From: a virus
DNA length: 20,435 bases
Strand: one strand, 5' to 3'
IMG/VR virus record: IMGVR_UViG_3300010883_017752
Span: 1 to 20,435 of that record
Of the stretch, positions 1-18,845 are shown piece by piece; within the stretch, counting starts at the first letter, position 1; each line of letters begins with the position of its first letter. A program made the translations under genes and the position numbers. Under the pieces are notes generated by a model. The model searched no databases and was not told the origin of the DNA. It was given only the letters and a program-made list of their open reading frames with translations.

Positions 1-1446
1 AGTGCTACCATTTGCCTCTTTTCGCCAGATGATGAGGAGATGGCACTCGCAAAAACTGGTAATTGGTTTCACGATAATCCTCAACGTGGCCGTTCTAATA
101 ATTCTGCTCTCCTACTTCGTGATGAGACCACTCCTGAACAATTTGCTGCATTGATGGAATCGGTCAAAGAGTTTGGGGAGCCGGGATTTGTTTGGTCAGA
201 TTCTACAGAGCTTATCGTAAATCCCTGTGTTGAAATTGGCCTTTATCCTGTTGATGAAGTAACGGGAAAAACCGGTTGGCAAGCATGCAACCTAAGCACG
301 ATCAATTGCGCAAAGGTAAAGACCAAAGAAGAATTTCTAGAGTCTTGTAAAGCAGCAGCCATCATAGGAACTCTTCAAGCTGGCTTTACTGAGATGACAT
401 ATCTTGGAGAGGTTACAGAAAGAATCCTAAAAAAAGAGGCTCTTCTTGGCGTTTCCATGACGGGAATAATGGAACAGCACGAATTATGTCTAGATCCTGC
501 CACACAGAGAGAGGGAGCTAGAATTGTTAAGAAGACAAATAAAGAGCTTGCGGCAAAAATCGGAATTAATGTTGCGGCTAGAACGACATGCGTAAAGCCC
601 GAAGGTACTGCCAGTTGTATCCTTGGTACTAGTTCCGGCATTCATCCCCATCACGCCAAACGTTATATTAGACGTGTACAAGCCAACAAGATGGAAAACA
701 TATACCAGCACTTCAAAAAGATAAACCCCCGTGCTTGCGAAGAATCGGTATGGTCTGCTAATGACAGCGATGACGTGGTTTCTTTCTGCATAGAAGTTCC
801 AGACGGAGCCAAACTAAAAAACAAAGTGGGGGCGATTGACCTTCTAGGCTGTGTTAAATTGACTCAAAAGAATTGGGTCATGACAGGAAGAAATGAAGAG
901 CTTTGTGTTCAAAAATTCCTTCAACACAATGTATCCAATACGATCAATGTTAAGTTAGAAGAATGGGATGAGGTTACTGACTTCATTTTTAAAAATAGAA
1001 GATACTTTTGTGGAGTGTCTCTACTCCCAGTCAGCGGAGATAAGGATTATCCTCAAGCGCCCTTTACAACAGTATACCTTCCTAGCGAGGTGGTGTCTCA
1101 TTACGGAGATGGGGCTGTTTTTGTGAGCGGACTGATAGAGGTCGCCCTCAATCTATGGGAAGACAATCTGTGGACAGCCTGCGATTCCTTACTCGGGCTA
1201 GGAGTTAAGGTCAAAGGCAACGGGAAAAAAGATTGGACCGACAGATGTGTTCGTTTTGCAGACAAGTACATGGACGGAGACGTAAAGAGACTCTCTTATT
1301 GCATGAAAGATGTGTACAATTGGAAAGAGTGGGTAGACGTTAAGAGATCTTACGAATCAGTAGATTATACTAAATGCATTGAAGAAGAAGATAACACAAC
1401 CCCTGAACAAGAAATAGCATGTGCCGGTGGAGCTTGTGAGATATGA
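1..1446 (+). CDS. nrdJ: Class II (adenosylcobalamin-dependent) ribonucleotide reductase, 5'-truncated
   Basis: This enzyme reduces ribonucleotides to deoxyribonucleotides and so supplies dNTPs for phage replication. The reading frame is open from base 1, so the N-terminal part lies outside the window; 481 codons are visible. The active-site segment 'NPCVEIGL' (Cys codon 226-228) holds the Asn, the thiyl-radical Cys and the Glu of the family. The second redox Cys is in 'ACNLSTIN' (codon 286-288). The protein ends in 'CAGGACEI', whose two cysteines (codons 1420-1422 and 1435-1437) match the C-terminal shuttle pair of the monomeric Lactobacillus leichmannii type. 'AKTGNWF' and 'GRSNNSALL' are also typical. 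The fit to the monomeric NrdJ type, and hence B12 dependence and a triphosphate substrate, is from family knowledge. No intein or frameshift is visible. The stop overlaps the next start (ATGA). An ATG at base 40 exists but is internal. Confidence 0.93.
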   Translation, partial: SATICLFSPDDEEMALAKTGNWFHDNPQRGRSNNSALLLRDETTPEQFAALMESVKEFGEPGFVWSDSTELIVNPCVEIGLYPVDEVTGKTGWQACNLSTINCAKVKTKEEFLESCKAAAIIGTLQAGFTEMTYLGEVTERILKKEALLGVSMTGIMEQHELCLDPATQREGARIVKKTNKELAAKIGINVAARTTCVKPEGTASCILGTSSGIHPHHAKRYIRRVQANKMENIYQHFKKINPRACEESVWSANDSDDVVSFCIEVPDGAKLKNKVGAIDLLGCVKLTQKNWVMTGRNEELCVQKFLQHNVSNTINVKLEEWDEVTDFIFKNRRYFCGVSLLPVSGDKDYPQAPFTTVYLPSEVVSHYGDGAVFVSGLIEVALNLWEDNLWTACDSLLGLGVKVKGNGKKDWTDRCVRFADKYMDGDVKRLSYCMKDVYNWKEWVDVKRSYESVDYTKCIEEEDNTTPEQEIACAGGACEI

Positions 1447-11897: not shown

Positions 11898-12908
11898 ATG
11901 CTTGTCAGCTACATAAGAAGCTCTTCTTACAACAATTACGATTATTGCCAGCAGCAGTACTACATTAGTTATGTACTGGGGCACTCAACCGTATCTGGGA
12001 AAAAGGCTCAGATGGGGACGATAGTTCATAAAGTCATGGAGTGCTTGGCTAGAGCTAAAAAGTCTTTGCAAGACAATAAAAAGAGCTTTAAGGATGATGT
12101 GCTTGGCAGGGTTAGAATAACCAAGGACAAGGTTAAGTCTGAAAAATTTGTCAACACTCTAATAGAAAAAAGTTACGAGCATTATACAAACGATTCCCCC
12201 CACGACTTTACGAAAAAAGACTTTCGAGATTGTGAAAAATGGTCTTGGATGGCCATTCACTATAACAATGGCCAGTTTGATCCGAGAAATAGAAATGTAG
12301 TGGAGGCGGAGCCTCACTTCGACATAGAGATTACTGAGCCTTGGGCGAAGTATTCTTACGATCTTCCAGACGGGACTAAGCTGGAAGGCAACTTAGCCAT
12401 TAAGGGTACAATCGATCTCGTAACCCAGATAGATGATGGCGTCATCGAAGTTATAGACTGGAAGACTGGCCGCAGAATAGACTGGGCTAGTGGAGAAGAA
12501 AAGACCTACGAGAAACTATCCATAGATCCGCAACTTCTTTTGTACTACTACGCTATCTCTAAGATATTTCCCGACTACAAACAAGCAATCATGTCTATAT
12601 TCTACATAAGAGATGGAGGTCCATTTAGTCTATGCTTTGATGAATCTGACCAAACAATGTTTCTAGATATGCTGAGAACTAGGTTCGCGCAAATCAAGAA
12701 CAATACCAAGCCACAACTCATTTCAAAAAATAGATCTCACTGGAAATGCACAAGGCTGTGCGACTACTGCAAGAATGACTGGGAAGGTACGGACAAGAGT
12801 ATATGTCAATATGTTCAGGAAGAGGTGGAAAAAAATGGTATTGAACAAGCAACATTAACATGCACACAAAAGGGGTTTAGCCTTGGATACTACGACGCAC
12901 CCGGTTAA
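11898..12908 (+). CDS. Cas4/RecB-like PD-(D/E)XK nuclease with iron-sulfur-type cysteines
   Basis: A 336-residue nuclease of the RecB/AddB/Cas4 group. The nuclease motifs are 'GTIVHKVME' (H44), 'GTIDLVTQIDDGVIEVIDWK' (D173, D187, K189) and 'DPQLLLYYYAI', the QxxxY motif that positions DNA. One Cys near the N-terminus ('YDYCQQQYY', C17) and a cluster near the C-terminus ('CTRLCDYCKNDW', then 'SICQY') match the four-cysteine iron-sulfur arrangement known in Cas4 and AddB. Such enzymes degrade or resect DNA ends. There is no CRISPR array or other cas gene here, so a role in recombination or replication is likelier than adaptation. Its end overlaps the next gene by 26 bases. Confidence 0.86.
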   Translation: MLVSYIRSSSYNNYDYCQQQYYISYVLGHSTVSGKKAQMGTIVHKVMECLARAKKSLQDNKKSFKDDVLGRVRITKDKVKSEKFVNTLIEKSYEHYTNDSPHDFTKKDFRDCEKWSWMAIHYNNGQFDPRNRNVVEAEPHFDIEITEPWAKYSYDLPDGTKLEGNLAIKGTIDLVTQIDDGVIEVIDWKTGRRIDWASGEEKTYEKLSIDPQLLLYYYAISKIFPDYKQAIMSIFYIRDGGPFSLCFDESDQTMFLDMLRTRFAQIKNNTKPQLISKNRSHWKCTRLCDYCKNDWEGTDKSICQYVQEEVEKNGIEQATLTCTQKGFSLGYYDAPG

Positions 12909-13833
12909 ATATCTAACCAATGATGAAGTATGTAATATATTATCTGTCCCAGAATGTGTTGGAGTTGTAGAAGAGTTATTCAAAGACCTTAGCAACACCC
13001 AGATGCCCCCTAAGATATATCTAGATATACCAAACGGAGACTTCAGAGCAATGCCAGCAGTGGTTGGCTCTACGGCAGGAATAAAGTGGTGTGGAGTTCA
13101 TCTAGACGAAACAGGACATAGGCGGAAGGTTAATATCTTTGCCAAAGTTTTAATCAACGATACCGTATCTGGAAAGCTTTTGGCTATCATGGACGGAGAA
13201 TCAATAACCTCCATAAGAACAGCGGCCGTGACTGGGGTTGCCACTAAATATTTATCTCGTCTAGATTCAAAGATAGCTGCATTTATAGGATGTGGAAATC
13301 AAACTAAATATCAGATAGAAGCAATTCTTAGTGTTAGAGATATAAAAACGATTAAGTTATATGATTTGCACTCAGAAATCGCAGAAAAAATGGCCGCAAA
13401 TTTTGAAGGCTATGAAACAATTGTGTGTGAGACGCTAGAGGATTGTGTTGTAGATGCGGATATAGTAACTACGCTTACTCCGTCAAGAAATGGATATCTT
13501 AAATACGAATGGTTACTTCCAACCGTTCATATTAATGCCGTGGGAGCTGACGCTGAAGGCAAACAAGAATTAGACGGGTCAGTGCTAGACAATGTCGATT
13601 GGGTCATCTATGATAATTATGAGCAATGTTCTCACTCTGGAGAAATACAATACGTTAAGTATAAAGATAAGAAACAGGAGTGGAATTCTCTGGAAAATGT
13701 CGTGTCGAAACTGAACTTGAAACAGGGATGGATTCAGGATACACTGTTCGATGCCACGGGTCTGGCCATCGAGGATGTAGCCACAGGAAGGTATATTTAT
13801 GAAAAACTTATCAGGTCGGAACAGTCTAGTTGA
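12883..13833 (+). CDS. Ornithine cyclodeaminase / mu-crystallin family enzyme
   Basis: A 316-residue NAD(P)-dependent enzyme of the family that includes ornithine cyclodeaminase (ornithine to proline plus ammonia), bacterial ketimine reductases and SbnB-type synthases. Seen here: 'FRAMPA' (R55), 'GIKWCGVH' (K68), 'MDGESITSIRTAAVTGVATK' (R112), the dinucleotide-binding loop 'FIGCGNQTKYQ' (134-144, a G.GNQ variant) and 'INAVGADAEGKQELD' (D223, K227). R55, K68, R112 and D223 line up with the substrate-binding and catalytic residues known for Pseudomonas ornithine cyclodeaminase. The start must be the TTG at 12883 (AGGGG 7 bases upstream); the next ATG would cut off 40 residues. It overlaps nuclease genes on both sides. 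The exact substrate cannot be told from sequence. Confidence 0.9.
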   Translation: MDTTTHPVKYLTNDEVCNILSVPECVGVVEELFKDLSNTQMPPKIYLDIPNGDFRAMPAVVGSTAGIKWCGVHLDETGHRRKVNIFAKVLINDTVSGKLLAIMDGESITSIRTAAVTGVATKYLSRLDSKIAAFIGCGNQTKYQIEAILSVRDIKTIKLYDLHSEIAEKMAANFEGYETIVCETLEDCVVDADIVTTLTPSRNGYLKYEWLLPTVHINAVGADAEGKQELDGSVLDNVDWVIYDNYEQCSHSGEIQYVKYKDKKQEWNSLENVVSKLNLKQGWIQDTLFDATGLAIEDVATGRYIYEKLIRSEQSS

Positions 13834-14368
13834 AGTTAAGTTTACAGACGAAATGTTGGCTAGAGCCAAGATTAAGGCAAAAGGCCTAGGCTCAATAAAG
13901 AACTCTATCAGAAAAGGTAAGGGTAACATTGTTGGTTATCTTGGAGAGGAAATTGTAGCCCACTACATGAAAGCTGACATTATAAGTAACGATGAGGGTA
14001 CAGAAAAGTATAACTATGACTTAGTCAAAGATGGAAAAAAGATTGAGGTTAAGTCTAAAGAAAGAAATGTTGCCCCCCTAGATTTTTACGATGCTAGCGT
14101 TGCGGAGACTAGCAGACATCAACAAACCGACATCTATGTATTCACCAGCATAGAATGCGAAGGAGGCAAACCTGTCAGAGCTTGGATTTGTGGACAGAAG
14201 GATGCTAAGGAATATTTTGAACAGGCCCGCTTTTACGCAAAGGGTGACATAGATCCTTCTAACGATTGGAAAGTTAAAACCGATTGCCACAACATGCTGT
14301 ACAAAGATCTTGACCCAGTAGAGCTTGAAGGCTACGAGGAAGAGGAAGAATTTCCGTTTAAGTTTTAG
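13799..14368 (+). CDS. Putative PD-(D/E)XK nuclease-like protein (189 aa)
   Basis: A small protein with the core of a restriction-type nuclease. 'GYLGEEIVAHYM' (E50 or E51) is followed by 'YNYDLVKDGKKIEVKSKERN' (D74, E83, K85), which fits E...D...ExK. After this come 'TDIYVFTSIE' and 'RAWICGQKDAKEY', the strands expected to complete the fold. It resembles the small phage proteins annotated as PD-(D/E)XK endonucleases, but I cannot assign a named family. The tail is strongly acidic ('EGYEEEEEFPF'). The start is supported by AGGAAGG 6 bases upstream, and it overlaps the cyclodeaminase gene by 35 bases. A role in nicking or processing DNA next to the polymerase genes is likely but not shown. Confidence 0.72.
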   Translation: MKNLSGRNSLVEVKFTDEMLARAKIKAKGLGSIKNSIRKGKGNIVGYLGEEIVAHYMKADIISNDEGTEKYNYDLVKDGKKIEVKSKERNVAPLDFYDASVAETSRHQQTDIYVFTSIECEGGKPVRAWICGQKDAKEYFEQARFYAKGDIDPSNDWKVKTDCHNMLYKDLDPVELEGYEEEEEFPFKF

Positions 14369-14377
14369 GACAACAAG

Positions 14378-16297
14378 ATGCCAGTTTGGACACCTCTGCA
14401 TTTGCACACACACTACAGCCTCCTAGATGGTCTCTCAAAGCCGTCTCAGGTTGCCGATAGATGTTCTGATCTTGGGTACACCTCGTGCGCCGTCACAGAT
14501 CACGGAACAATCTCCGGGGCAATCTCTTTTGTGGGAGCCATGAAGGATAAAAATATTAAGCCCATCTTAGGCTGTGAATTTTATCTCTCACAACAATCAT
14601 GTAGTATTAAAGATAAGTCAAACCGCTCCTTAAGTCACCTAGTAGTCTTAGCGAAAAATAAGAATGGCTGGGATAAACTTATCCAAGCAACTTCTAAAAG
14701 TAACGACGACGGGATATTCTATTTTAAACCTAGATTAGATCTCGATTTGTTAGCGGACTACTGTGATGGAAGCTTGATTTCTTTTAGTGGTCACATGGGG
14801 AGCGACTTAGCCAACGTCCTGTTTACTGATTATCGAATTGGATACAACGCTTCAACATATGAAGAGGCCACGTCAGAGTTAGATCCCGACTGGAAAAGCA
14901 AAGCCACAAGGCTTGCAGAAAAGTATAGGGAAATTTTTGGGAAAGAAAACTTTTTTATTGAGATTCAACTAATAGATAAAGACAATGCCCCCTCCACAAT
15001 TCTGATAGCTGAATGCTTAAGAGAAGTTAGCAAACACACGGGGATTCCATGTGTCGCCACGGCAGATTCCCACTACCCGACAAAGGAGGATGCCCTAGAT
15101 CAGAGACTACTTCTTTGTTCCGCGATGAAGACCACCCTGAGTAAGATTGAAAGCAAGATGAACGCAGGAGAAGACGTTGGACTATCTTCCTTCTTTCGTT
15201 CTAATAATTATCACATCCCATCTAGAGATGAAATTGAAGCTATCAATACTCCAGAAGAGATTGCTAATACTGTTCTAATCGAGGGCATGTGCGAGGAGTA
15301 CAACATACTAGGTTCCCCGATGCTCCCCCAGTTCTCTTGCCCAAACGATTTAACAGAAGATGAATACCTCAAAGAGCTTTGTCGTCATGGTTGGAAAAGT
15401 CTTCTAAAGGCCGGGAATAAGATTGAAGAGGACGATAAGCTTCAGGCGTATTTGTATAGAATTAAAAAAGAATTGGAAATCATACAGGGTGCGAATTTAT
15501 CTGGCTATTTTTTGATAGTTAGAGATATAGTAAATTACATCAAGGACAACGGCTGGCTTCCGGGTCCGGGCAGAGGGTCAGCGGCGGGCTGTCTGGTTTC
15601 ATACCTTGTGGGTATCACCAAGGTAGATCCAATAGAACACGACCTTCTTTTCGAAAGATTTTATAACGCTGGCCGAAACACGGATGACCACATCTCTTTG
15701 CCAGATATCGACATAGATGTTCCCGCAGAGAAGCGCGATGATACAATTGGTTATATCCGATCTAAGTACGGAAACAACAAGGTTGGACAGATGATTACGT
15801 TTGGTAGACTTCAAGGGCGAGGAGCTTTGAAGGAGGTGTTTAGGGTTCATCAGGCGTGTAGCTTTGATGAGATAAATGCTATCACAAAAAATATTCCCCA
15901 AGAGCATGAGATTTCTGATCAACTAGAAAATATGAGTAAACCCTCTATTATCAAGTGGGCATTGATTAATCAGCCTGAAGGATTAAAAGAGTGGTGTCAT
16001 ATAAATGATGATGAGCAATTGGAAGGAAAATATTCTAAACTGTTTGAACAAGCCATAAGACTTGAAGGGACGTATAAATCTCAGGGTAAACATGCCGCAG
16101 GGGTTGTAATTTCTTCAGAGAATCTTAGTGATGTATGTCCCATGATAAGAGATAAGCATGGAGAAGAAAAAGTTGCGGGACTAGAAATGCAGGATTTAGA
16201 AGCTATGGGCCACGTTAAATTTGATGTATTAGGTATTAATTTCTTAGATAAAATTATGAAAATCATAAAGGATATCAGTAATGAAGAGCGCGAATGA
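14378..16297 (+). CDS. dnaE: DNA polymerase III alpha subunit, N-terminal half (PHP and palm)
   Basis: The first 639 residues of a DnaE-type replicative polymerase. The PHP domain opens with 'LHLHTHYSLLDG' (H8, H10, H12), continues with 'AVTDHGTISG', and includes 'TADSHYPTKEDA', so its metal ligands look intact. The palm has 'GPGRGSAAGCLVSYLVGITK', the catalytic 'SLPDIDIDVPAEKRD' (D445, D447) and 'GHVKFDVLGIN' (D616), equivalent to D401, D403 and D555 of E. coli. The protein then stops at 'DISNEERE', just before the region a full-length DnaE continues with. All three catalytic aspartates are in this half; most of the fingers are not. It would need the product of 17253-18845 to act. Confidence 0.95.
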   Translation: MPVWTPLHLHTHYSLLDGLSKPSQVADRCSDLGYTSCAVTDHGTISGAISFVGAMKDKNIKPILGCEFYLSQQSCSIKDKSNRSLSHLVVLAKNKNGWDKLIQATSKSNDDGIFYFKPRLDLDLLADYCDGSLISFSGHMGSDLANVLFTDYRIGYNASTYEEATSELDPDWKSKATRLAEKYREIFGKENFFIEIQLIDKDNAPSTILIAECLREVSKHTGIPCVATADSHYPTKEDALDQRLLLCSAMKTTLSKIESKMNAGEDVGLSSFFRSNNYHIPSRDEIEAINTPEEIANTVLIEGMCEEYNILGSPMLPQFSCPNDLTEDEYLKELCRHGWKSLLKAGNKIEEDDKLQAYLYRIKKELEIIQGANLSGYFLIVRDIVNYIKDNGWLPGPGRGSAAGCLVSYLVGITKVDPIEHDLLFERFYNAGRNTDDHISLPDIDIDVPAEKRDDTIGYIRSKYGNNKVGQMITFGRLQGRGALKEVFRVHQACSFDEINAITKNIPQEHEISDQLENMSKPSIIKWALINQPEGLKEWCHINDDEQLEGKYSKLFEQAIRLEGTYKSQGKHAAGVVISSENLSDVCPMIRDKHGEEKVAGLEMQDLEAMGHVKFDVLGINFLDKIMKIIKDISNEERE

Positions 16298-16511
16298 TTA
16301 TTACCAAAATGTACTTCTGGACGGATGCTCTATCGAGTATCAGAAATTAAGCATTTGTGATTTAAGAGATTACTATAATTTTTATAGCAGAAGAAAAACA
16401 CCTATCTATCAAGTGCATTGTGATGATTCTCAGAATAGATTTTCTCAAATCTATAAAGATATCAGCGAGGCAATCAACAGTTTCGTCGAATTGAAAAAGA
16501 AAATATCTTAA
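16281..16511 (+). CDS. Small protein of unknown function between the polymerase halves (76 aa)
   Basis: Unrecognised. It overlaps the end of the polymerase N-half by 17 bases and has a good ribosome binding site (AAAGGA, 8 bases before the ATG). It is rich in Tyr, Ser and Lys, with 'DLRDYYNFYSRRKTPIY' and a helical C-terminus, 'ISEAINSFVELKKKIS'. I see no GIY-YIG, HNH or LAGLIDADG signature, so it does not look like a homing endonuclease or a remnant of one, and it has no intein blocks. Its position inside the split polymerase locus suggests either a small replisome partner or a newcomer at the break. Confidence 0.62.
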   Translation: MKSANDYYQNVLLDGCSIEYQKLSICDLRDYYNFYSRRKTPIYQVHCDDSQNRFSQIYKDISEAINSFVELKKKIS

Positions 16512-16557
16512 TTATACGCTGGAGAAAGTTTAGAATTTAATAGTCACGCCCATAACA

Positions 16558-16564
16558 AAAGGAG
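16558..16564 (+). promoter_or_regulatory. Ribosome binding site of the exonuclease, defining an ATC start
   Basis: AAAGGAG followed by 6 bases and then ATC at 16571. The ssb gene has the identical heptamer with the identical 6-base spacing before its ATG. This is the main reason to place the exonuclease start at the non-standard ATC codon. Confidence 0.7.
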
Positions 16565-16570
16565 ATAGCC

Positions 16571-17260
16571 ATCAATTACAGGGACATAATTGTCTTCGAT
16601 TTTGAGACCGGTTCTAGAAATCCAGCAAAGACACAGCCGACACAAATTGCAGCAATAGCTCTTCATGGAAGAAAGCTAACCATCCAACCCGGAGGTATTT
16701 TTAACAGCGAGATCAGGCCGATCTTAAACGACGACAAGGCCACGGAGATGGGACTTGATCCGGTTGAAGAGGAAGCCTTAAATATTACGCATAAAACTCG
16801 CAAAGAACTTGCAAAAGCCCCGCATCTTAAAACGGTATGGAAAAAGTTTGGCGAGTTTGTCAACAAGTTTAACTTCAAGAAGACACCCTATTTTGCTCCT
16901 ATCCCAGCGGGCTATAACATTATTGGTTTTGATCTGCCCATTGTTCAAAGGGTTTGTGAAGAACATGGGCCAACCGACAAACAGGGTAGGCAATGTTTGT
17001 TTAATAAAATCCACAAAGTAGATGTCATGGATATGGTTTGGCAGTGGATGGAAAACAATCCCGACGTAAAGTCTCTCAGCATGGACAGCATGCGGGATTA
17101 CATGGGGTTTCCAGAGGAGAGCAAGGAAGGCGCCCATGATGCCCTACAGGACGTTAAAGATACGGCCAACATGATGATCAGGTTCTTTAAATTCTATCGC
17201 TCCCTCGCTCCAAAAGTGAAATTTGAAAAGGCTTTTGCAGACGGAAACTTCTATGTTTGA
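16571..17260 (+). CDS. dnaQ: DEDDh 3'-5' exonuclease (DnaQ-like), ATC start inferred
   Basis: A proofreading-type exonuclease of 229 residues. Numbered from the ATC codon as residue 1, the motifs are complete. Exo I is 'IIVFDFETGS' (D10, E12), Exo II is 'YNIIGFDLPIV' (D121) and Exo III is 'GAHDALQDV' (H189, D194), the H-x4-D spacing of the DEDDh class. The open frame begins after a stop at 16553-16555 and has no ATG, GTG or TTG before Exo I. The first ATG, at 16748, would remove it and leave an inactive protein. The stop overlaps the ATG of the polymerase C-half by 8 bases. It probably proofreads for the split polymerase in trans, like bacterial epsilon. The ATC could also be a mutated ATG or a sequencing error. 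Confidence 0.88.
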   Translation: MNYRDIIVFDFETGSRNPAKTQPTQIAAIALHGRKLTIQPGGIFNSEIRPILNDDKATEMGLDPVEEEALNITHKTRKELAKAPHLKTVWKKFGEFVNKFNFKKTPYFAPIPAGYNIIGFDLPIVQRVCEEHGPTDKQGRQCLFNKIHKVDVMDMVWQWMENNPDVKSLSMDSMRDYMGFPEESKEGAHDALQDVKDTANMMIRFFKFYRSLAPKVKFEKAFADGNFYV

Positions 17261-18845
17261 TATCAATGACACATCTTATGACTGCCGCAAAACTTGGAGC
17301 CTTATTTGTGACGGGAGAACTAAGGGTGTTTTTCAATTAGAGAGTCAGCTTGGGCGGTCTTGGGCGAAGAGACTGAAGCCCAGAAACATTGAAGAGCTTG
17401 CTGCTTTGTCCGCCTTGCTTCGACCGGGATGCTTAAAGGCTATCGTTGATGGCAAGTCAATGACTCAGCATTATGTGGATAGAAAAAATGGACACGAAGA
17501 AGCTTCTTATTTAGACGAATCTTTAAAGCCTATACTTAAACCCACATATGGAGTGTTGGTATATCAGGAGCAGTCTATGAGAATTGCTCAGGAGATTGCT
17601 GGCTTTAATCTCCAACAGGCAGATGATCTTAGAAAAGCTATTGGAAAAAAGAAGGCGGGCCTCATGGCGGAGGTCAAAAAAACTTTTATCAAGGGATGCA
17701 AAAATACATCCATTGTTTCTGAAGAAATTGCGGAGGAAATATTTGGTTGGATTGAAAAGTCAAATCGGTACGCATTTAATAAATCTCATGCTGTTAGTTA
17801 TGCTATTTGTGGCTATTGGTCTGCATACTGTAAAGCGCATTTTCCTCTACATTTCTATTGCAGTTACCTCTACCATTCACACGGCAAGCAAGATCAGCAA
17901 CAAGAAGTAAAAGAGCTGGTATCTGATGCCAAGATGCATGACATTATAGTTATGCCGCCGAAGGTTGACAATCTAAAAGGTCATTTTAACATTAAGGACG
18001 GCAATATTTATTTTGGACTACAAGATGTTAAGTATATTGGTGGTAGTCAGGTTGAGAAGGTAATCTCTGGGATAAAAGAAATAGAAGAGAAGTATGGTCA
18101 GGGGATTAAGGATATTAGTTGGCATAGAATATTGATTAATTTATCGGATAAGATCAACAGCAACGCTATGATAGCTCTTATCTCTATCGGGGCGCTTAAT
18201 TCTGATTATACCATTACTAGAAATAGAATGCTTTATGAGTTTGAAACTTGGTCTAGCTTAACTAAAAAAGAAAAAGATTGGGCGAAAGAAAACTGCGATG
18301 ACCCCAAGGGTTTGTTCCCAGAAAAAGGAAACAAGGGATTAGAGACAACGTTAGACAGACTGTTTCCTACCAAGAAAGAAGGTGGAGGAACTCATAATTC
18401 AAGGAGGAAGGATATAGTTAAGGATCTGAGAGACCTTTTAAAAAATCCCCCCTACGAACTAGACGATATGCCGGATTGGATAGCCTCCGAAGAGCAAAAA
18501 TATCTAGGAGTATCTCTTACATATTCAAAGATTGATGGTTGTGATACTGGAGCGTCAAACACCACATGTAAAGAATTCCTACAGGGCAAACCGGGCAAGG
18601 TTGTTTTGGGAGTAGAGATTATTTCATTAAGAGAATGGACTATTAGAAAGGGCAATAGTAAGGGCGATGTTATGGCTTTTCTTTCTGTGGAAGATAGCAC
18701 TGCCTCAATGGATTCTGTTATTCTCTTCCCCGAAGCTTGGTTAAAAAATAAGGCCTTGCTATATTCGGGGAACACGGTACTTCTATCTGGGAAAAAATCT
18801 TCCAAAGACACTACCCTCATAGTGGAAAAAGTTTTTCAAATCTAG
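17253..18845 (+). CDS. dnaE: DNA polymerase III alpha subunit, C-terminal half (fingers, HhH, OB-fold)
   Basis: The second part of the DnaE polymerase, 530 residues from the ATG at 17253. The in-frame TTG at 17223 has no ribosome binding site. It opens exactly where the N-half ends: 'MFDINDTSYDCRKTW' corresponds to the segment before the conserved 'KGVFQLESQLGRSW' (about residues 28-41). The fingers continue with 'ALLRPG', 'PTYGVLVYQEQSMRIAQEIA' and 'RYAFNKSHAVSYA'. 'FGLQDVKYIGGSQVEKV' is the helix-hairpin-helix region, and the last 100 residues form an OB-fold ending in 'LIVEKVFQI'. No canonical clamp-binding peptide is obvious at the end. With the N-half the total is about 1170 residues, close to one normal DnaE, so very little appears lost. 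Confidence 0.93.
   Translation: MFDINDTSYDCRKTWSLICDGRTKGVFQLESQLGRSWAKRLKPRNIEELAALSALLRPGCLKAIVDGKSMTQHYVDRKNGHEEASYLDESLKPILKPTYGVLVYQEQSMRIAQEIAGFNLQQADDLRKAIGKKKAGLMAEVKKTFIKGCKNTSIVSEEIAEEIFGWIEKSNRYAFNKSHAVSYAICGYWSAYCKAHFPLHFYCSYLYHSHGKQDQQQEVKELVSDAKMHDIIVMPPKVDNLKGHFNIKDGNIYFGLQDVKYIGGSQVEKVISGIKEIEEKYGQGIKDISWHRILINLSDKINSNAMIALISIGALNSDYTITRNRMLYEFETWSSLTKKEKDWAKENCDDPKGLFPEKGNKGLETTLDRLFPTKKEGGGTHNSRRKDIVKDLRDLLKNPPYELDDMPDWIASEEQKYLGVSLTYSKIDGCDTGASNTTCKEFLQGKPGKVVLGVEIISLREWTIRKGNSKGDVMAFLSVEDSTASMDSVILFPEAWLKNKALLYSGNTVLLSGKKSSKDTTLIVEKVFQI

Follow-up and report, generated by a model that had tools for sequence, protein, structure and literature searches.

How can a phage copy its DNA with a replicative polymerase whose gene is broken beside the active site, and what is the part of the gene that lies in the break? 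This question is raised by a stretch of viral DNA of 20,435 nucleotides (nt), positions 1 to 20,435 of the IMG/VR record IMGVR_UViG_3300010883_017752 (here called the window), in which DnaE, the alpha subunit of DNA polymerase III (Pol III), is encoded by two genes, DnaE-N and DnaE-C. A small open reading frame (ORF), orf76, and the gene of a DnaQ-like exonuclease lie between them, and the four genes form a head-to-tail series on one strand within a replication block (Table 1). The order N-exonuclease-C was found in all 190 viral loci carrying the three genes, of which the 166 with near-full-length genes represent 91 lineages, so the split is real. Comparison of these loci makes it likely that a C-family replicase is made here in three core pieces, in which DnaE-N and DnaE-C would associate non-covalently and the exonuclease would be the proofreading subunit.

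Table 1. Features of the split dnaE locus and of its surroundings in the window (aa, amino acids)
Feature	Position	Strand	Description
DnaE-N	14378..16297	+	PHP, palm and thumb of Pol III alpha; 639 aa; C-terminal end KDISNEERE
orf76	16281..16511	+	small protein of 76 aa, lineage-specific; overlaps the end of DnaE-N by 17 nt
Break	16298..17252	+	at about residues 578-584 of E. coli alpha (Taq ~640-648); holds orf76 and the exonuclease
Exonuclease	16571..17260	+	DnaQ-like 3'-5' exonuclease of the DEDDh type; putative subunit for proofreading; start apparently ATC
DnaE-C	17253..18845	+	fingers, HhH and OB of Pol III alpha; 530 aa; ATG at 17253, MFDINDTSYDC
PD-(D/E)XK nuclease	13799..14368	+	directly upstream of DnaE-N; assigned by fold
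Ornithine cyclodeaminase/mu-crystallin family gene	12883..13833		within the replication block; Pfam 2e-73
Ribonucleotide reductase gene	1..1446		runs past the left end of the contig

In a preliminary description of the window it was held that the two halves adjoin with little or nothing missing, and this is borne out by profile and structure comparisons. The family TIGR00594 (NCBIfam) is covered from 1 to 575 by DnaE-N and from 580 to 1021 by DnaE-C, and in an unsplit bacterial DnaE (L306) the tblastn matches of both halves are only two codons apart, thus no segment of the polymerase is missing. DnaE-N matches Pfam PHP and DNA_pol3_alpha, DnaE-C matches DNA_pol3_finger and HHH_6 together with a weak OB match (E 0.11), and both have DnaE among their PDB sequence matches (2hpi, 4jom and 5fku for DnaE-N). 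PHP, palm/thumb, fingers, HhH and OB follow in the order of DnaE, spread over two proteins, with the fingers, HhH and OB in the second, as had been proposed. DnaE-C could be aligned with E. coli alpha, a protein of 1160 residues, only as far as about residue 1058, and no C-terminal tau-binding domain was seen in it. When compared with solved structures, DnaE-N ends at about residue 578 of E. coli alpha (~640 of Taq; the last 13 residues are unaligned and were counted on), and DnaE-C starts at about residue 584 (~643-649 of Taq). The break is accordingly placed where the preliminary description had put it, in the linker directly after the strand of the third catalytic aspartate, at the palm/fingers boundary.

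Recurrence of the split and of the gene order had been left as a point to check. IMG/VR was searched with DnaE-N, DnaE-C, a divergent N protein and an alignment of N proteins, and loci from several deep groups were collected; 166 of the 190 loci have near-full-length genes and gave the 91 lineages at 92% identity of the C half, this cut being the only reduction of redundancy between overlapping metagenomes. The exonuclease fills the break in 190/190 loci and no two of the three genes share an open frame. A reciprocal search, started from the exonucleases of two groups, found DnaE-N upstream in 157/157 cases and DnaE-C downstream in 139/139 wherever the contig reaches so far, some contigs being shared with the other searches. 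It had also been considered that relatives with an unbroken dnaE, or an assembly error, might lie behind the split; no fused form or single-polypeptide DnaE was found among the 190 viral loci. Nor did an unsplit member of the clade turn up, the nearest unsplit forms being bacterial DnaEs and those of gut phages (~33% identity over N). In a scan of GTDB only bacterial DnaEs were among the matches listed; 78 of these 80 were unsplit, and in the other two the N region contains a stop that lies elsewhere than at the break of the window.

In a joint tree of 45 representatives all split forms fall together, with a support of 100. In separate trees of N and C against 80 unsplit forms, with the phages P1201 and phiST among the candidates, the split clade is a single bipartition (0.94 for N and 1.00 for C). 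As both trees recover one split group, the halves belong to one polymerase and not to two different ones, the other possibility raised in the preliminary description, and a single break of dnaE, in the common ancestor of this large group of phages, is the simplest assumption. The ratio of nonsynonymous to synonymous substitution rates (dN/dS) is 0.01-0.10 in eight pairs for N, exonuclease, C and orf76 where computable, which indicates that the two halves and the exonuclease are under strong purifying selection.

The four palm aspartates checked (443, 445, 447 and 616, in the PDIDID motif and KFDVLG) are invariant in 91/91 lineages and all belong to DnaE-N, which agrees with the earlier claim that every catalytic aspartate is in the first half. 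The finger residues checked in DnaE-C are likewise invariant, except K177 (86/91). The metal residues of the PHP domain are retained in ~65 of the 91 lineages and lost in about a quarter; N proteins of the L024-L081 type have a shortened PHP without metal ligands (residues 112-230 of the window's N), next to an exonuclease with an invariant active site. Since the PHP metal site is eroded and the exonuclease residues are invariant, it is the separate exonuclease, and not PHP, which can be regarded as the constant nuclease of the locus. As a further variation, the C halves of L002-L008, L095 and L107-L150 bear an N-terminal extension of ~30 aa with FxCGCxF, often with a later Cys. This extension is perhaps a small metal-binding element; it is absent from the DnaE-C of the window, from many relatives and from unsplit DnaE.

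The exonuclease is recognised by Pfam RNase_T (1e-11) and by the PHROG "DNA polymerase exonuclease subunit" (8e-23). Its DEDDh residues D10, E12, D121, H189 and D194 are invariant in 91/91 lineages, and exonucleases of different groups have a mutual identity of only ~32-43%. Against 50,697 phage records it gave no close match, the sole similarity being to Bacteroides phage SJC03 (28%, in an unrelated context). An F-x-x-[AS]-F (FxxAF) tail closes the protein in 86/91 lineages. In E. coli the C-terminal part of epsilon binds the PHP domain (PMC3919608), and by this analogy the tail is probably a peptide by which the exonuclease docks to the polymerase. The start codon is ATG in 84/91 lineages. 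The frame in the window lacks an ATG, GTG or TTG start and apparently begins with ATC behind AAAGGAG, a strong Shine-Dalgarno sequence at a good spacing; apparent ATC or ATT starts behind AAAGGAG/AAGGAG also occur in L012 (5322), L042 (5322) and perhaps L204 (8044), and such starts may limit translation of the exonuclease. In the window the first 8 nt of DnaE-C are also the last 8 nt of the exonuclease frame. The two genes overlap in 57/91 lineages and are separated by no more than 30 nt in 16 more. A programmed frameshift leading to an exonuclease-C fusion is not general, as no overlap exists in 34/91 lineages.

The surroundings of the locus are those of a replication module. In the window the block includes genes of a RecA-like protein, DnaB helicase, primase, deoxynucleoside monophosphate kinase, Cas4/RecB-like nuclease, single-stranded DNA-binding protein (SSB) and a sigma factor. 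Among the relatives, 22 long records (G001-G022, 79-224 kb) have exactly one DNA_pol3_alpha match each, and no polymerase of family A (PolA) or B (PolB) was found in them, although these genomes may be incomplete. As far as can be recognised from their genes, the split DnaE is the only replicative polymerase of these records. No beta-clamp domain was found in the same 22, possibly incomplete, genomes, and these phages may use the clamp of the host or none.

Taken together, the findings can be read as follows. The dnaE gene was broken in the linker behind the third-aspartate strand, possibly starting with a nuclease-driven or other gene insertion, and in every member found the gene of a DnaQ-like DEDDh exonuclease occupies the break, where nuclease and cargo genes still gather. 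The genes would be co-translated from one message, because stop and start codons overlap and the + strand of the window, from DnaE-N to DnaE-C, gave no terminator-like site. DnaE-N with the active site and DnaE-C with the fingers and DNA-binding domains would associate by the former palm-fingers contact, without a covalent link, and give an active enzyme, and the exonuclease would bind this N+C complex as proofreader, probably by its FxxAF tail. There is a precedent for assembly from two polypeptides in Aeromonas phage 25, where 43A and 43B are purified together and polymerise DNA (PMC2988022). The union of all three gene products in a single complex is an inference. An obligate heterotrimer, in which the exonuclease bridges the two alpha halves and polymerase and proofreader assemble in one event, is possible but doubtful; if true, a bridging exonuclease would be a third route by which proofreading is joined to Pol III, besides the alpha-epsilon contact and built-in exonucleases.

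Several points weigh against the three-piece replicase. Genetic linkage alone is no demonstration that the exonuclease binds the polymerase. The distance correlations (0.88 for N-C, 0.85 for N-exonuclease and 0.86 for exonuclease-C) show co-inheritance only, since any genes inherited together would give high values and they were calculated for these three genes alone. All relatives are metagenomic contigs and none comes from a cultured phage. Moreover, the break of some relatives holds cargo without a replicative role, such as glutamate dehydrogenase, methyltransferases, epimerases, sugar enzymes and uracil-DNA glycosylase (UDG), so position within the break is no proof of partnership. The same cargo favours the view that N and C assemble and that the exonuclease is a co-transcribed passenger acting elsewhere, in recombination or in turnover of host DNA. 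This view is nevertheless considered unlikely: of all genes met in the break, that of the exonuclease alone recurs in 190/190 loci, the searches made never found it apart from the halves, the exonuclease active site is invariant and its PHROG label is that of a polymerase subunit. More distant still is the idea that the halves have ceased to be a polymerase, N having become a nuclease or regulator and C a DNA-binding protein, with replication left to the host replicase. The erosion of PHP in some clades would fit it, however palm aspartates and finger motifs are invariant or nearly so, no other polymerase of family A, B or C is recognisable in the 22 long records, and in the window the split DnaE has genes of a helicase, a primase, an SSB and a recombinase as neighbours, which makes such a loss improbable.

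Covalent rejoining of the halves, whether through a split intein or through trans-splicing of an intron, would have models, as split inteins rejoin cyanobacterial DnaE and one is reported for the PolB of phage MIJ3 (PMC3919608, PMC6892783); the FxCGCxF extension, present on C halves of several groups and missing from unsplit DnaE, can also be counted in its favour. Yet that extension is missing from the window and many relatives as well, and DnaE-C has its own start codon. The N proteins end only 18-46 residues (median 24) beyond the start of the KxDxLG motif, which leaves no room for a normal N-intein; no Pfam intein match was obtained, and Rfam gave no match at or near the junctions. The absence of an intein, already noted in the preliminary description, is thereby upheld, and rejoining was rejected as extremely improbable. 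An artefact (assembly error, frameshift or decaying pseudogene) is brought to mind by P1201, a single isolate with an overlapping two-ORF DnaE at the same site, while its relatives have only one polymerase gene annotated. For the split clade an assembly error or frameshift is ruled out by recurrence, and with 190 loci, 91 lineages, intact frames, low dN/dS and invariant catalytic residues practically no likelihood is left to an artefact of any kind. The non-covalent replicase with its own proofreader is therefore retained as the preferred reading.

The remaining contents of the break differ from group to group. The 76-aa protein, which had been noticed between the halves before, does not accompany the split in all groups: homologues of orf76 are confined to the window's group among the loci compared, and other groups have at its position an unrelated 89-aa ORF, a 57-60-aa ORF (KFxDLxVGxxF) or none. 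Its model is alpha-beta-beta-beta-beta-alpha (predicted local distance difference test, pLDDT, 92) and its dN/dS is 0.04-0.10 in the pairs tested; no Pfam or PHROG match and no convincing PDB structure match was found, YkuJ with Z 6.6 being within the usual noise. On gene distribution orf76 does not belong to the core, and a theta-like partner, suggested by size alone, has nothing in its favour. The earlier statement that no recognisable endonuclease is present also needs revision. The gene directly upstream of DnaE-N has no Pfam or PHROG family, but its AlphaFold2 model (pLDDT 84) is best aligned by VIA-align with Eco15I/NhoI (Z 10.1-9.3), followed by Hjc resolvases (7.2), and E50, D74 and K85, invariant in 18 sequences, fit the E...D...(D/E)xK pattern of a PD-(D/E)XK nuclease. 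This gene moves: it lies between N and exonuclease in L051, L065, L074 and L079, and between exonuclease and C in L107. Other relatives have an Endonuclease VII (L031, by Pfam), an HNH-like protein (L054, by eye) or MUG113/T5orf172 (L048) inside the break. In the window itself no endonuclease gene separates the halves. The nucleases in and around the break of relatives suggest, though they do not prove, that nuclease-driven insertion made the break or keeps it open.

Phage polymerases in pieces are known from several sources. Gene 43 of the T4-like Aeromonas phages 25 and 44RR likewise gives the replicase as two polypeptides from adjacent genes (43A/43B), however these are B-family enzymes of few phages with a homing endonuclease or an untranslated spacer in between, while here the polymerase is of the C family, an exonuclease lies between the halves and the arrangement is fixed across a deep clade. 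Phage MIJ3 has a PolB with a split intein (PMC6892783), OM43 phages have a split polymerase (PMC10580990) and Microbacterium cluster EF has two DnaE genes (PMC7302621). A split DnaE in a phage is not unprecedented, because the C-family alpha of Cybele (Microbacterium), Papyrus (Mycobacterium), phiST (Cellulophaga) and P1201 (Corynebacterium) is in two ORFs too, in none of them with the exonuclease of the clade in between. According to their records Cybele and Papyrus are broken between PHP and palm, and the unannotated dnaE of phiST (L314 2825-6425) directly before the catalytic PDIDTD motif. Only P1201 is split at the linker of the window, with overlapping ORFs (gp59/gp58; L313 4974-5002, GATGTATGA); the matches in its relatives are annotated as one gene, its break is isolated and may be a sequencing frameshift rather than a natural split. 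In two distant DnaEs (L121 4052-5257 and L123 7818-8987) the break is near KxDxLG and encloses an ORF with homing endonuclease PHROG matches, also without the exonuclease of the clade; no group I intron was found in L121 with Rfam. In L119 (7283-8035) a LAGLIDADG-type endonuclease-like ORF, recognised by eye and without Pfam match, interrupts dnaE near the catalytic motif.

Cyanobacterial DnaE is likewise encoded by two genes, but it depends on an intein for rejoining, and no intein is present at the junction of the window. The cyanobacterial break falls in a ..Y/CFN.. segment, whose counterpart here is RYAFNKSHA, inside DnaE-C; the two break sites are thus unlike each other, as had been stated before. 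A C-family polymerase is combined with a DEDD-type 3'-5' exonuclease also in E. coli alpha-epsilon, in the exonuclease-fused DnaE1 of Bacteroidetes and in PolC. In those systems alpha is one chain and the exonuclease is respectively separate, fused ahead of PHP or inserted in PHP (PMC3919608), in contrast to an exonuclease gene lying between two alpha halves. The PolC trait is absent, PHP being continuous in DnaE-N and PolC models scoring far below cut-offs.

Cultured phages and the literature searched, which covered few subscription papers, gave no example of a fixed three-gene replicase. Splitting of phage polymerases as such was already known; it is the clade-wide, fixed three-gene replicase of the C family which is new. 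That alpha has stayed broken beside its active site throughout a radiation of phages suggests that C-family polymerases can do without a covalent palm-fingers junction. The halves and the exonuclease, which nature provides as parts that can be expressed separately, lend themselves to tests of finger-palm assembly and of the coupling of proofreading. The size of the clade also makes it a natural series in which to follow how a site of gene insertion within an essential gene is made permanent. The halves may be labelled by annotation pipelines as two partial polymerases, and joining them would correct the inventories of replication genes of many uncultivated phages.

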